Part shown: one piece after another, positions 36,215 through 40,841 of the stretch
Layout: the number at the start of each line of letters is the position of its first letter
Numbering within the stretch: the first letter of the stretch is position 1
Origin: Citrobacter youngae ATCC 29220
GTDB lineage: Bacteria > Pseudomonadota > Gammaproteobacteria > Enterobacterales > Enterobacteriaceae
DNA: 64,000 bases
Assembly (NCBI RefSeq): GCF_000155975.1
Contig: NZ_GG730299.1
Location: 1,150,734 to 1,214,733 of the forward strand
Direction of reading: 5' to 3'
The notes under the pieces: generated by a model
Told to the model about the DNA's origin: nothing
The model's input: the letters and a program-made list of their open reading frames with translations, nothing else
Database searches by the model: none
Position numbers and translations under genes: made by a program

Positions 36215-36502
36215 TCACTGCACTGCCAGCCTGCGCAGGCGTGAAGTATCCACGTTTTTTTGAGCCTCTGCCAGGCTCCAGGTATTTTGCAGGTTTAACC
36301 ACATTTCGGGGGAACTGCCAATCACCACAGAGAGTTTGATCGCCATCTCAGGCGTTAGGGCTGCTTTGCCGGTTAATAGTCGGCTTGCCGTTGAAGGTGC
36401 AATCTCCATAGCCCTGGCAAACTCGCGCAGGCTGACATTGAGTTCGTCCAGCGCTTCCTGAATGATATCCCCAGGACGGGGATGATTCGCCATCTTCATC
36501 AA
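36215..36502 (-). CDS. higA: HigA-type antitoxin (XRE family, YddM-like)
   Basis: 95 residues. XRE helix-turn-helix of the VapI/HigA type: [20 protein letters not shown], then [20 protein letters not shown] and [20 protein letters not shown]. Binds the upstream HigB toxin and the operon operator. E. coli K-12 has a very similar protein, YddM, at the same map place. The gene overlaps the toxin stop by 4 bases; toxin first, antitoxin second is the usual higBA order. Confidence 0.9.
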
Positions 36503-36786
36503 TGATAATCCTCGTAGTCCAGTATGTACGCGTCGCCATTGACGAATTCAAACGTAATACGCCAGTTACCTGAAACAGAAATTGCCCATATACCGTCACG
36601 CTCACCCACCAGAGGATGTAGCCTATAACCGGGCATATTGATATCTGTAACCTTGCTTGCCGCATCAATAACGGCAAGCCTGTGTCGTAATCGCCGGACA
36701 TGTTTCGCCATAACGCCTGATGTTCGTCCATGAAGAAACAAATCGCGCAATCCCTTGTGTCTGAAGTTCATGATCGTCCGTATCAT
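36499..36786 (-). CDS. higB: HigB-type toxin (RelE superfamily)
   Basis: 95 residues from the ATG at 36786, which has AAGGAA 8 bases upstream; the internal ATG at 36771 would give 90 residues and has a weaker site. RelE/HigB fold with [57 protein letters not shown] and [20 protein letters not shown]. The conserved basic residues used for mRNA cleavage on the ribosome are retained, so the toxin looks active. Paired with higA in one operon. Confidence 0.9.
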
Positions 36787-36997: not shown

Positions 36998-38713
36998 TTA
37001 CTCCAGTAGTGAGTTCAGACGCTCAATCTCCTGACGCCATTGCGCCTGTAGCAACGGCTTTTGATGTTTCGGCTTGCGGGCGAGATCGTCGGCCAGACGC
37101 TGCTCCAGCTCAACAAGTTGTTCCAGCAATCCATCGCTGTCACCGCTTATTTCTGCTCTCGCTTCGACCACCGTTTCGGGAACGGTTATCTCAGTAGACG
37201 TCTGCCGAATACGATCGTTGATCGCATCCAGATCATGCCATTCGCTCAGTTCGCCATTGTCTATGAACCAAAACCGGTTACAGCTTTGGCTAATAAGCTG
37301 ACGATCGTGGCTAACCAGCAGCACGCCGCCCTGATAGCTTTGCAGCGTTTCTGCCAGCGCCTCTTTACCTTCCATATCCAGATGGTTGGTCGGTTCGTCG
37401 AGCATCAGCAGACTGTAGCGCGCAAGCGTCAGCCCAACAAACAGCAGCCGGGATCGCTCACCGCCGCTTAATGTACTGACTCGCTGTGCGTGACGAACCC
37501 ACGGGAAGCCCGCGCTAATCAGCGCCATCTTGCGAATCTCTGGCTGAGGGGCAAACGCTTCCAGCGCGTCAAATAACGAATCGTTATCTGCGAGCTGGTG
37601 CAGCGTCTGGTCATAGTATCCCAGCGTAACGCGCGGATGTAACACCAGTGAAGGTGATGCCAGCTGCGACTGAAACTGTTGCCAGATAAGCCTTAGCAGC
37701 GATGATTTACCGCAACCATTGCGTCCGACAATCGCCACGCGATCGCCGCTTTTCAAGCGGATACCGGCAATGGAAAACAGCGTATCCGCGCCGGGAGCAG
37801 GGGCCACAGACAGATTAGTCATTTCCAGCAAACGATCCGCACGCAGGGCATCACCCTGCAATGTTAGCGTCCACTGACTTCCTGACGTCACCTCGGTCTG
37901 TAGCTCTTTCAGGCGCAGTACCTGTTTTTCCATCTGCTTGGCCTTGCGGGAGAGATCTTCATTGTCGTAGACCCGCCCCCAGGTTGCCAGCCGTTTGGCG
38001 CTGGCGGTCACGCGGTCAATCTCCTTTTGTTCGGCCTTATGGCGCAGGGCTTCGCTGGCGTCTCTTTCTGCCAGAGCCTGACGCGCCGCGCTACAGGGCA
38101 GATCGAAGGCATGGATCGTTCGATCGCGCAGGATCCATGTGCCATGCGTCACCGCATCCAACAACTGCGAATCGTGAGAAACCACCACAAAACTGCCAGA
38201 CCAGTTCTGTAAGAACTGTTCCAGCCACAGCAACGTGGGTAAATCCAGGTGGTTACCCGGTTCATCCAGCAGCAGCAGGTCAGGATTGCGCATTAACGCA
38301 CGCGCTAATAACAGACGCGTATGTTGACCGCCGCTCAGCGTTTGCGCTGTCAGAGATAAATTCTCCGCCGTGAAGCCCATTTCGGCGAGCAACGCTTCAA
38401 CCCGCCACTGCTGGCCTGCGCGTTCATGCTCGGGAAGTTGAGCGAGAACGGCTTCCTGCAGCGTAAGCGGCAGGATATCGTCAGGCAGATGTTGCTCCAC
38501 GCGGGCAAGGTGGCAGTAGTTGGCCTGGGAAATGGTGCCGCTGGTGGGCGAAATCGTGCCATCAAGCAGTTTTAACAGCGTACTTTTGCCGCAGCCGTTG
38601 TAACCCATTAGCCCAATGCGGTCGCCTTTTTTCAGGGTAAAGGAAAGCTCGTCGAATAGCGTGCCGAATGCCGTTTCAACGTGTAAGGATTGTGCGGTTA
38701 GTAATGTGCTCAT
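36998..38713 (-). CDS. ABC-F family ATPase (ribosome-associated type)
   Basis: 571 residues, two ABC domains and no membrane segment. First domain: Walker A GYNGCGKST at residues 37-45, signature LSGGQ, Walker B LLLLDEPGNHLD. Second domain: GRNGCGKSS, LSGGE, LLMLDEPTNHLD. Between them is an interdomain linker of about 80 residues, rich in charged residues (HKAEQKEIDRVTASAKRL), as in ABC-F proteins that enter the ribosomal E site. It is not EttA, Uup, YbiT or YheS by length and pattern. The first Walker B has Gly where the family has Thr (DEPTNHLD). It sits where E. coli has adhP. The leader upstream suggests antibiotic- or translation-linked control. Role in antibiotic protection or ribosome rescue is inference. 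Confidence 0.85.
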   Translation of the reverse strand: MSTLLTAQSLHVETAFGTLFDELSFTLKKGDRIGLMGYNGCGKSTLLKLLDGTISPTSGTISQANYCHLARVEQHLPDDILPLTLQEAVLAQLPEHERAGQQWRVEALLAEMGFTAENLSLTAQTLSGGQHTRLLLARALMRNPDLLLLDEPGNHLDLPTLLWLEQFLQNWSGSFVVVSHDSQLLDAVTHGTWILRDRTIHAFDLPCSAARQALAERDASEALRHKAEQKEIDRVTASAKRLATWGRVYDNEDLSRKAKQMEKQVLRLKELQTEVTSGSQWTLTLQGDALRADRLLEMTNLSVAPAPGADTLFSIAGIRLKSGDRVAIVGRNGCGKSSLLRLIWQQFQSQLASPSLVLHPRVTLGYYDQTLHQLADNDSLFDALEAFAPQPEIRKMALISAGFPWVRHAQRVSTLSGGERSRLLFVGLTLARYSLLMLDEPTNHLDMEGKEALAETLQSYQGGVLLVSHDRQLISQSCNRFWFIDNGELSEWHDLDAINDRIRQTSTEITVPETVVEARAEISGDSDGLLEQLVELEQRLADDLARKPKHQKPLLQAQWRQEIERLNSLLE

Positions 38714-38734
38714 TGTTGCTTACTCAAGAGTTAC

Positions 38735-38857
38735 AGGCGTGAAAACGCCTCGTCAAACATCGCTGACGATAACCCGGTAAGCCCGAGAGAAGGGGATTTA
38801 GAAGTTAGCTTCGCTCAAGCAAAAGTTATCGCAGCACGATACCGATAACGCTTGAGC
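38735..38857 (-). promoter_or_regulatory. Putative leader switch upstream of the ABC-F gene
   Basis: Reading the minus strand, segment 1 GCTCAAGC-GTTATCG (38857-38843, inside the leader ORF) pairs perfectly with segment 2 CGATAAC...GCTTGAGC (38831-38813, at the leader stop). Segment 3 GTTATCG (38773-38767) is a second perfect partner for CGATAAC, so 1:2 and 2:3 exclude each other. CTTGAG at the ABC-F Shine-Dalgarno (38728-38723) is complementary to CTCAAG of segment 1. A further hairpin AGGCGT/ACGCCT (38750-38735) precedes the start. No T-run follows, so control would be at translation rather than by intrinsic termination. Confidence 0.55.
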
Positions 38858-38909
38858 ACTGGCGATCGCCAAAAGCATGTGAAACGATAAAACGTTCACA
38901 GTACAGCAT
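38826..38909 (-). CDS. Putative 27-residue leader peptide of the ABC-F gene
   Basis: A short ORF with a very strong Shine-Dalgarno (AAAGGAGGAT, 6 bases before the ATG at 38909), ending 112 bases before the ABC-F start. The peptide begins MLYCERFIVSHAFG and ends SVIGIVLR. It resembles no family I know. Its last third is encoded by one arm of the hairpin described as the leader switch and its stop codon overlaps the competing arm, so ribosome position would decide the fold. FIVS is loosely like the arrest motif IFVIS of ErmCL; that similarity is weak. Too short for usual gene callers. Confidence 0.6.
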   Translation of the reverse strand: MLYCERFIVSHAFGDRQCSSVIGIVLR

Positions 38910-38991
38910 AAGTATCCTCCTTTTATTTTTCAGAATGTTAATCGGTGCTGAAAGTGTAATCGCAATTTACGCAGTCGCGCAAGTTTTGAGC

Positions 38992-39015
38992 GCCCGGCAG
39001 CAGAGTCCGCCGGGC
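38992..39015 (-). terminator. Stem-loop after maeA
   Basis: Perfect 7-bp stem GCCCGGC / GCCGGGC (38992-38998, 39009-39015) 7 bases beyond the maeA stop. The minus-strand tail GCTCAAAACTTGC is only weakly T-rich. Confidence 0.6.
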
Positions 39016-39021
39016 AAACCG

Positions 39022-40719
39022 TCAGATAGAGGTACGACGGTAGTCGCGATATTCCGCCTGCCAGAAATTATCGTCAATCGCCTGTTGCAGCGCTTCGGCG
39101 GAGGTTTTCACCGCCACGCCTTGCTGCTGGGCCATTTTACCGACGGCAAAGGCAATGGCGCGGGAAACGGTCTGAATATCTTTCAGTTCCGGTAACACCA
39201 GACCTTCGCCGTTGAGCACCAGCGGTGAATACTGCGCCAGCGTTTCACTGGCCGACATCAGCATTTCATCGGTAATGCGCGATGCGCCGGAAGCAATAAC
39301 ACCCAGCCCGATACCCGGGAAAATATAGGCGTTGTTACACTGGGCAATCGGGAAGACTTTCTCTTTCCACACTACCGGCGCGAACGGGCTACCGGTGGCG
39401 ACCAGCGCATTACCTTCAGTCCAGGCGATAATGTCCTGCGGCGTGGCTTCAACGCGTGAGGTCGGGTTAGACAGCGGCATGACGATCGGACACGGGCAAT
39501 GTTTGTGCATCTCGCGGATGATCTCTTCAGTAAACAGGCCCGTCTGCCCGGAAACGCCGATCAGGATATCCGGCTTAACGTTGCGAACTACGTCGAGCAG
39601 CGACAGCACATCCTCTTGCGTATCCCAGTGCTGCAGATTTTCGCGTTTTTGCACCAGTTTGGTCTGGAATGACAGGAGATTAGGCATTTTGTCGGTCAAC
39701 AGCCCAAAGCGGTCAACCATAAATACGCGCTGGCGCGCCGCTTCTTCACTCAGTCCTTCGCGCTGGATTTGCGCAATGATCTGCTCAGCGATCCCGCACC
39801 CGGCAGAGCCTGCGCCAAGGAAGACGATATTTTGTTCGCTCAACTGGCTACCCGCCGCGCGGCTGGCGGCAATGAGCGTACCGACGGTGACCGCCGCGGT
39901 TCCCTGAATATCGTCGTTAAACGAACAAATTTCATCGCGATAGCGGGTCAACAGCGGCATGGCGTTTTTCTGTGCGAAGTCTTCGAACTGCAGCAGCACG
40001 TCCGGCCAACGATGTTTCACCGCCTGGATGAATTCATCGACAAATTCGTAGTATTCCTCATCAGTGATACGCGGATTACGCCAGCCCATGTACAGCGGAT
40101 CGTTGAGCAACTGCTGGTTGTTGGTACCGACATCCAGGACGACCGGCAGGGTGTAAGCCGGGCTGATCCCGCCGCAGGCGGTGTACAGCGACAGCTTCCC
40201 GATCGGAATGCCCATCCCGCCGATGCCCTGGTCGCCAAGGCCGAGAATACGTTCGCCGTCGGTGACGACGATAACTTTGATATTGTGGTTAGGAACGTTT
40301 TGCAGGATATCGTCCATGTTGTGGCGGTTCTGGTAGGAGATGAACACGCCGCGCGCGCGACGGTAGATCTCAGAGAAACGTTCACAGGCCGCACCCACCG
40401 TTGGGGTGTAGATGACAGGCATCATCTCATCAAGATGATTATGCACCAGGCGGTAGAACAGGGTCTCGTTGGTATCCTGGATGTTGCGCAGATAAATATG
40501 CTTGTCGATTTCGGTTTTGAATCCCTGATATTGGATCCAGGCGCGTTCTGCCTGTTCTTCAATCGTCTCGACCACTTCCGGCAGTAACCCCAGCAGGTTG
40601 AAGTTACGGCGTTCTTCCGCACTGAAAGCGCTCCCTTTGTTCAGTAAAGGGAACTCCAGCAGAACCGGGCCAGCGTAGGGGATGTAAAGGGAACGCAGTT
40701 TTTTAGTTTCGTTTTCCAT
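39022..40719 (-). CDS. maeA: NAD-dependent malic enzyme MaeA (SfcA)
   Basis: 565 residues from the ATG at 40719, the E. coli length; a start at 40755 would add 12 unconserved residues. Converts malate to pyruvate and CO2 with NAD. Malic-enzyme motifs: [40 protein letters not shown], the metal/catalytic [29 protein letters not shown], and the NAD site [16 protein letters not shown]. Cytoplasmic. Monocistronic, upstream of the ABC-F gene on the same strand but separated by 110 bases and a stem-loop from its leader. Confidence 0.97.
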
Positions 40720-40841
40720 GTCACTCACTCTTTTTTGAATAACCGTCCCTGGCACGCTTTATGATCGTATGTGGCCTGTCCGCCAGGGAAACGGGCGAAG
40801 TATAAAGCATTGTGAATGGGTTAAGGGGTTTTATAAGCAAA

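Follow-up and report, generated by a model that had tools for sequence, protein, structure and literature searches.

A conserved upstream reading frame and two alternative RNA folds before an ABC-F gene of Citrobacter youngae suggest a leader-peptide attenuator

Does the short reading frame in front of a chromosomal ABC-F gene of Citrobacter youngae ATCC 29220 control translation of that gene? The locus lies in a stretch of 64,000 nucleotides (contig NZ_GG730299.1, positions 1,150,734 to 1,214,733), here called the window, in which the ABC-F gene is preceded by an upstream open reading frame (uORF) and by four RNA segments (1 to 4; pairings are written 1:2 and so on) that can pair in more than one way. 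The leader, the ABC-F gene and all their parts are read on the minus strand, and coordinates are window positions (Table 1). We think it probable that this leader is a leader-peptide translational attenuator of a PAF1-type Gram-negative ABC-F gene. The original prediction, made from the letters of the window, had described a 27-codon uORF with a strong Shine-Dalgarno site, which is present as claimed; a hairpin across the uORF stop, in which GCTCAAGC plus GTTATCG (38857-38843) is indeed complementary at every base, apart from a 4-nt bulge, to CGATAAC (38831-38825) plus GCTTGAGC (38820-38813); and an ABC-F Shine-Dalgarno sequence, CTTGAG (38728-38723), that proved complementary to CTCAAG of the first arm. 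The second GTTATCG, which it placed 70 nt downstream of the first, exists (38773-38767), but the spacing is 76 nt.

A scan of genome contigs with the ABC-F yielded 187 relatives, the best 80 of which were taken as loci. At the equivalent position, all 80 orthologous loci contained a uORF with a strong Shine-Dalgarno site, and the segments recurred alongside it in every one; the uORF was in frame in 79, a single-base gap shifting the frame in the locus L055. Among these loci and the window (81 in all), 75 uORFs had 27 codons. The uORF was also present in 82 of 83 further loci, a set that includes copies of the window genome and species represented twice. Overall, 161 of 163 loci had the uORF in frame and complete with its start, stop and Shine-Dalgarno site; its length was 25-28 codons, and its stop lay 96-155 nt before the ABC-F start. 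Differences in length were whole codons, except in L055 and L083. In the window, the Shine-Dalgarno site of the leader ORF contains AAGGAGG and is near-perfect. The intact start, stop and Shine-Dalgarno site and the whole-codon length differences point to a translated uORF, and are stronger evidence for it than the substitution ratios given below. The original prediction had proposed a comparison with relatives; when this was made, the uORF, the segments and the alternative pairings proved to persist in relatives whose ABC-F is as little as about 50% identical, and pairs had changed on both sides.

Two mutually exclusive folds can be drawn for the leader. Fold I combines 1:2 (GCTCAAGCGTTATCG with CGATAAC plus GCTTGAGC) with 3:4 (GCTTAC.GGGTTA with TAACTC plus GTAAGC). 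In fold II, 2:3 is nested in 1:4 (GCTCAAG.GTTA with TAAC.CTTGAGT); these two pairings are compatible and can coexist, which goes beyond the original prediction, as does the extent of 2:3, which reaches 22 pairs in the window (GCTG-CGATAAC with GTTATCG-(T)-CAGC, plus GCTTGAG.GAAG with CTTC.CTCGGGC). The minimum-energy fold of the window leader (226 nt) was fold I, at -71.8 kcal/mol (z = -3.18; 1 of 200 dinucleotide shuffles was as good). Folding across species used 77 non-redundant leaders, of which 76 entered the alignment A3 (L068, with a long insertion, was left out); a smaller alignment, A1, held 43 of 44 listed leaders, again minus L068. When only the last 150 bases or so of the 76 leaders were folded, the median energy advantage of forcing the first half of 2:3 over forcing the upper part of 1:2 was 4.4 kcal/mol. 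The structure with 2:3 forced was the lower one in 61 of these leaders and the higher one in 14, and the gap was within 5 kcal/mol in 38.

Alignment A3 was computed with MAFFT, blind to structure, and the structures were drawn on the window leader. Standard pairs filled 89.2% of the A3 cells for fold I (shuffled mean 86.2, slid controls 29-44) and 91.6% for fold II (shuffled mean 88.8, slid controls 34-44). The covariation score was 0.150 for fold I (shuffled mean 0.113, slid maximum 0.075) and 0.163 for fold II (0.129 and 0.083, respectively), and cells with two-sided changes numbered 83 and 76, compared with slid maxima of 51 and 49. By these comparative measures both folds are backed by covariation. 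For mutually exclusive folds of which one hides the ABC-F start, the evidence is that of covariation and energy only. The individual helices were paired in 95.2% (1:2 upper), 88.3 and 88.6% (3:4), 98.0 and 90.9% (2:3) and 88.2% (1:4) of cells. The first, stop-side half of 2:3 is thus the best-kept helix. The GTTATCG lower arm of 1:2 was ruled out as the key element, being the least kept (81.6%). The sequence GCTTGAGCGAAG (38809-38820) is kept in most leaders, seemingly more than its pairings demand.

An alignment-free partner swap, in which segments were paired with the partners from other species, was carried out with 14 representatives that were at most 74% alike. The native duplex was better than the swapped mean in 14 of 14 for 2:3 (p = 0.00012), 12 of 14 for 1:2 (p = 0.0023), 11 of 14 for 3:4 (p = 0.025) and 9 of 14 for 1:4 (p = 0.042); base composition may add to these differences.

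To place a ribosome on the leader, we refolded each of the 77 leaders once per codon while masking the bases that a ribosome would cover there (P site -14 to +16). With no ribosome, the ABC-F start region had a mean accessibility of 0.37. The value was 0.37-0.40 when the mask stood 15-24 codons upstream of the last sense codon and 0.44-0.50 when it stood 4-14 codons upstream; with the mask on the last codon itself it was 0.36. The mask in the middle of the uORF opened the start region more than that at the last codon in 65 of the 77 leaders, more than no ribosome in 68, and more than masks at early codons in 64. From no ribosome through the mid-uORF mask to the last codon, the expected number of 1:4 pairs went from 7.5 to 0.02 and back to 7.5, that of 2:3 pairs from 16.5 to 21.7 to 2.7, that of 1:2 pairs from 5.1 to 0.9 to 0.25, and that of 3:4 pairs from 2.5 to 1.5 to 2.5. 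Taken together, the accessibilities and expected pairs mean that in the model ABC-F opens when a ribosome stalls in mid-uORF but not when one sits at the stop codon, and that closure occurs mainly via 1:4. The idea of the original prediction that ribosome stalling or efficiency on the leader sets the fold, and with it ABC-F translation, agrees with the simulation as regards stalling in those 65 leaders, with a partial effect in a shuffled control too. According to the model, the ABC-F start would be freed by a ribosome that stalls some 14-22 codons into the uORF, on the conserved motif [S/A/P]-[H/R]-x-[F/L/Y]-G or immediately beyond it.

The switch that we propose would work as follows. With its strong Shine-Dalgarno site, the uORF would be translated whenever the leader is transcribed. 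If nothing stalls them, ribosomes would reach the stop codon, cover segment 2 and leave segment 1 free; the ABC-F start would then be held, in the model chiefly through 1:4 and to a smaller extent through 3:4, and the gene would be off. A ribosome that is slow or stalled in the middle of the uORF (P site at about codons 14-22), with the SHxFGDR motif at the top of the exit tunnel, would cover segment 1, so that 2 could pair with 3, segment 4 would be free, and ABC-F would be translated. The signal would likely be a drug at the peptidyl-transferase centre or in the exit tunnel, and the ABC-F protein would clear the drug-stalled ribosomes, closing a feedback loop. Translation of the uORF, arrest, a drug as the signal, protection by ABC-F and the feedback are steps that we infer.

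A sensor of the state of translation that needs no drug could use the same parts: low initiation on the uORF, or a shortage of ribosomes, would alter the fold, or ABC-F would repress itself by clearing a constitutive stall on the leader. The strong Shine-Dalgarno site would make uORF occupancy a good readout, and ABC-F proteins in other systems clear stalled ribosomes. However, in the fold model the empty leader is as closed as one with a ribosome at the stop codon (0.37 and 0.36), so a drop in initiation would not turn ABC-F on, and we regard this explanation as unlikely.

The peptide set comprised 162 leaders (the window and 161 of the 163 loci), with L055 and L083 (frameshifted) and L081 (a duplicate of the window's own genome) left out; it includes copies of the window genome and species from two collections. 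These leaders gave 117 distinct peptides of 25-28 residues. Counted from the end, the well-kept positions in the 117 peptides were -18 ([S/A/P], 114), -17 ([H/R], 99), -15 ([F/L/Y], 117) and -14 (G, 101), followed in the C-terminal part by -9 (S, 116), -2 (L, 114) and -1 (R, 116). Because the last ten codons double as pairing segments, conservation there is not creditable to the peptide. A C-terminal arrest motif, VLR-stop, is not needed, though not disproved, because these codons are held by 2:3 and a stall at the stop codon is predicted to leave the gene off. The ratio of nonsynonymous to synonymous change (dN/dS) was calculated for the 58 of the 77 non-redundant leaders whose uORF has 27 codons. 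It was 0.56 in frame for codons 2-17, compared with 0.73 and 0.96 in the shifted frames, and 0.42 for codons 10-17, compared with 0.52 and 0.85; we take this as moderate evidence of selection on the leader peptide.

A nutrient attenuator would work with identical geometry: if a charged tRNA ran short, the ribosome would lag in codons 10-22 and ABC-F would open without any drug. In support, codons for His, Arg and Ser turn up repeatedly in the motif. Yet the peptide contains no run of a single amino acid, the motif residues vary between His, Arg and Leu or between Thr, Phe, Leu and Ala, which a sensor of a single tRNA would hardly tolerate, and the downstream gene encodes an ABC-F protein and not a biosynthetic enzyme. 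These features make a nutrient signal quite unlikely.

An RNA switch for a ligand or protein, or a thermometer, would make the uORF incidental. The RNA is very highly conserved, GCTTGAGCGAAG in most leaders being an example, and the two folds are near in energy. Much of this conservation sits in the pairing segments, however; the in-frame uORF keeps its start, stop and Shine-Dalgarno site in nearly all loci and changes length by whole codons, and no Rfam 15 family matched the leader, either at the gathering score or at E <= 1. We consider such a switch very improbable, and a known RNA family was ruled out by the same search. Transcription attenuation by an intrinsic terminator, of the MsrDL kind, was set aside too: a simple pattern scan of 38650-39150 found no terminator-like site (0.8 expected in shuffles). 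Rho-dependent control is possible.

Several results weigh against the attenuator that we favor. In the fold model 3:4 is weak, at about 2.5 expected pairs, and 1:4, on which closure mainly depends, was the weakest pairing in the partner swap. The predicted opening is modest, and it is absent or reversed in 12 of the 77 leaders, including Proteus-, Aeromonas- and Pantoea-like ones. With the spacer shuffled, the mid-uORF mask was above the last codon in 64 of 77 leaders, equal to the real leaders by the same measure (64 of 77); this survives because segments 1 and 4 were left intact. The mean gain was nevertheless smaller with the shuffled spacer (0.078) than with the real one (0.140; Wilcoxon p = 2e-6). 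In the model, then, 1:4 alone yields part of the opening effect, and the conserved spacer adds to it. Pairs with two-sided changes numbered 17 of 38 in each fold, hardly above the best slid controls (16 and 15); the pair-type count for fold I was not above the shuffles (172 of 500 reached it), and the shuffle comparisons overstate, since the leaders are related to one another. With a dN/dS of only 0.56 and the 3' part of the uORF bound by RNA pairing, selection on the peptide is not cleanly separated, and two uORFs, those of L055 and L083, are frameshifted.

The controlled gene encodes a protein with two ABC domains. Its best match among 194 families was NCBIfam NF000355, ribosomal protection-like ABC-F, at 331 bits, below the curated cut-off of 380. 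Among solved structures, the chain that a profile of 26 orthologues matched in one piece over nearly the whole length was 6ha8_V (labelled ExpZ in the table), which we take to be VmlR of B. subtilis; YheS chains had a higher total score. A PADLOC search gave general ATPase-type matches only, to which we gave no weight. A 2019 study (PMC6723617, Murina et al.) predicted that PAF1, which occurs in Klebsiella, Enterobacter, Serratia, Citrobacter and Vibrio, is an antibiotic-resistance ABC-F that had gone unrecognised. The genera in which we find the gene fit this list, from which Escherichia is absent as given in the text available (PMC6723617), and the protein is probably PAF1, an assignment by distribution and not by a published tree. 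The words leader and uORF are absent from the main text of that paper.

The leader was followed through genomes with a covariance model based on 31 sequences chosen by hand, distant ones among them; matches to those are by construction. It found the leader in 40 of 394 order-sample genomes and 79 of 295 family genomes, with one copy per listed genome; part of the 79 family matches were read for adjacency of uORF and ABC-F. At E <= 1e-100, ABC-F was present in 47 of the 394 genomes, at 50-100% identity in 44 and at 39-41% in 3. The 40 genomes with the leader were all among these 44, leader and gene being adjacent by coordinates in 40 of 40; reading the other four revealed the leader as well, and all 44 genomes with ABC-F at 50% identity or more therefore have the uORF. 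In a class-wide sample, the window's own genome was the only one of 369 with ABC-F at the same threshold. The uORF and ABC-F occur together in named records of Vibrio sp. THAF64, V. campbellii, Photobacterium sp. GJ3, Aeromonas caviae, Proteus mirabilis, Morganella morganii, Pantoea sp. At-9b, P. dispersa, Rahnella sikkimica and Ewingella americana; the loci L165-L176 were read and stand outside the leader and peptide counts. The leader was not found in the E. coli genomes searched, where ABC-F over 80% of its length was present in 0 of 5,426, and it had no match in GenBank phage records.

Among plasmids, the leader was found at the DNA level in 34 of 72,556 records, from Pantoea, Rahnella, Vibrio, Klebsiella, Ewingella and Pseudomonas. 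ABC-F was present in 40 plasmid records, 39 of them larger than 330 kb (some chromosome-sized) and one a 50.6-kb Morganella plasmid; since all but one are of this size and only 2 of the 40 were typed as mobilizable, a mobile resistance cassette was set aside. The leader stays with ABC-F on plasmids, and also where the maeA match is absent upstream (28 of 86 loci; L034 has only 520 bases there). In the Morganella morganii 50-kb plasmid p48659_1 (L172), leader and gene lie near acetyltransferase and ada/alkB genes. A plasmid of Pseudomonas silvicola (L083, 2430-2640) carries a uORF that ends early by frameshift and an ABC-F match limited to residues 1-323 of 571, as though the two were in decay together. 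In Rahnella aceris NC_015062.1, the leader and the C-terminal part of ABC-F are about 44 kb apart (540613-541725 and 585515-585723), as if the gene had been split. A short leader pattern matched 19 IMG/VR contigs, which may be host flanks of proviruses, and 17 of these contained a stretch of ABC-F (E <= 1e-20, more than 45% identity). Two IMG/VR contigs, L211 with no ABC-F and L212 with its 48-residue start, show an apparent rearrangement in or just after the leader.

The two distant ABC-F loci L170 and L171 (39-41% identity) have a uORF, MKLSQLAFARYLSNLR[I/P]QSAVN, with an ARYLSN motif, a hairpin across the stop and, by eye, an analogous bulged-U helix; these are possibly a diverged version of the leader. 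On reading, the third distant locus, L169, showed no uORF. Of 14 phylum-level relatives of ABC-F (L186-L199, 33-37%), a simple ATG scan of 350 bases upstream found none in 12; the uORF that it picked up in each of the other 2 looked different. That the uORF encodes a small protein with its own job, the RNA fold mainly tuning basal expression, is the least credible of the explanations considered: the peptide motif is kept between groups that share less RNA sequence (L170 and L171 included), but the last ten codons track the RNA pairing, and the uORF stands beside ABC-F in 83 of 83 loci and in the 40 covariance-model genomes, the exceptions seen being the rearranged copies L211, L212 and Rahnella aceris NC_015062.

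The setting is a Citrobacter-like chromosome, and the nearest ABC-F orthologues (92-95%) are from C. portucalensis, C. braakii, C. werkmanii, C. youngae and Citrobacter sp. wls619. The genes on the minus strand run from an sra-like ORF through a gene for a maeA-like malic enzyme (39022-40755) to the leader, ABC-F and a HigBA-like pair; the names sra and maeA are our assumption. The HigB-like toxin and helix-turn-helix antitoxin genes (36215-36786) directly follow ABC-F, and HigB was matched in 9 and HigA in 8 of 86 loci. Elsewhere in the window, a SECIS_3 element (Rfam RF01989, 32102-32160) is ordinary for a selenocysteine formate dehydrogenase gene.

Table 1. Parts of the leader and the gene that it precedes, in window positions.
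Feature	Position	Strand	Basis
Possible -10 element of a putative leader promoter, TACACT	38953..38958	-	High column identity in the alignment; against it, no sigma-70-like pair in the scan
Shine-Dalgarno site of the leader ORF, AAAAGGAGGAT	38914..38924	-	Sequence; AAGGAG(G) before the uORF start in 77 printed leaders
Leader ORF (uORF), 27 codons, MLYCERFIVSHAFGDRQCSSVIGIVLR, TAA stop	38826..38909	-	ATG at 38909, TAA at 38828-38826; sequence and relatives
Candidate arrest motif SHAFGDR, codons 10-16, [S/A/P]-[H/R]-x-[F/L/Y]-G	38862..38882	-	Peptide conservation and dN/dS; role putative
Segment 1, GCTCAAGC-GTTATCG, within the uORF; partner 2 or 4	38843..38857	-	Pairing counts and partner swap
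Segment 2, GCTGCGATAAC...GCTTGAGCGAAG, across the uORF stop; partner 1 or 3	38809..38835	-	Pairing counts and partner swap
Segment 3, CTTCTCTCGGGCTTACCGGGTTATCGTCAGC; partner 2 or 4	38762..38792	-	Pairing counts and partner swap
Segment 4, TAACTCTTGAGTAAGC, ABC-F ribosome-binding region; partner 1 or 3	38718..38733	-	Pairing counts, masking and partner swap
ABC-F ATPase, 571 aa, probably PAF1 subfamily	36998..38713	-	Family searches; subfamily by match with the genus list as given in PMC6723617

In the attenuation of ermC and ermB, pairings 1:2 and 3:4 alternate with 2:3. The present leader differs from these in that the gene encodes an ABC-F protein rather than a methyltransferase, segment 2 contains the stop codon, 2:3 can be enclosed by 1:4, the peptide is different, and the locus is chromosomal in Gram-negatives. 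The likeness to ErmCL and ErmBL is that a ribosome stalled on the uORF changes the local fold and exposes the start of a ribosome-protecting gene (PMC10219788, PMC12121999). The toiL-topAI leader of E. coli is alike in being a Gram-negative uORF whose bases pair with a downstream ribosome-binding site, and stalls by several drug classes relieve its repression (PMC12121999); however, the gene downstream is a toxin-antitoxin operon, and the text of that paper, as far as it was available, mentions no partner helix of the 2:3 type.

Antibiotic-resistance ABC-F genes controlled by a uORF are known from Gram-positives: msrD with its leader MsrDL (PMC10314930), vmlR (PMC9226507), and VmlR2, Ard1 and CplR (PMC10201436). 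MsrDL has a Rho-independent terminator (PMC10314930) and vmlR is controlled partly by transcription attenuation (PMC9226507), whereas our simple scan found no terminator here; MsrDL, moreover, has 6 codons and stalls at the stop codon (PMC10314930), where a stall in the present leader is predicted to leave the gene off. By analogy, the leader would work like those of the ermC and toiL type and control the kind of gene that leaders of the MsrDL and vmlR type control. A survey of RNAs in 50 genomes reports eight uORF candidates, and of the two described in its available text neither is like this leader (PMC11109978). Our search of the open-access literature, which did not extend to subscription papers and preprints, turned up no earlier account of this leader, nor of any other leader belonging to a chromosomal ABC-F gene in Gram-negatives.

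A wider proposal, which we offer tentatively as one possible account, is that a deeply conserved Gram-negative arrest peptide, with its motif in codons 10-16, senses a class of inhibitors of the tunnel or the peptidyl-transferase centre able to get into Gram-negative cells, which may be natural peptide antibiotics made by competitors and not clinical macrolides, and switches on PAF1 via a two-fold RNA whose uORF hides the ABC-F start; leader and gene would have stayed together, by descent or transfer, across Vibrio-, Aeromonas- and Enterobacteriaceae-type lineages. A conserved leader of the stall type would be independent, indirect support for the prediction that PAF1 confers antibiotic resistance (PMC6723617). 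A compound that switches on a leader-reporter would be a candidate substrate of ABC-F, which offers a direct route to the inducer. In many bacteria of gut, water and plants, a uORF and a refolding RNA are kept together before this ABC-F gene, which has been little studied and is of a type able to protect ribosomes, and this suggests a built-in sensor of trouble at the ribosome, probably of antibiotics.

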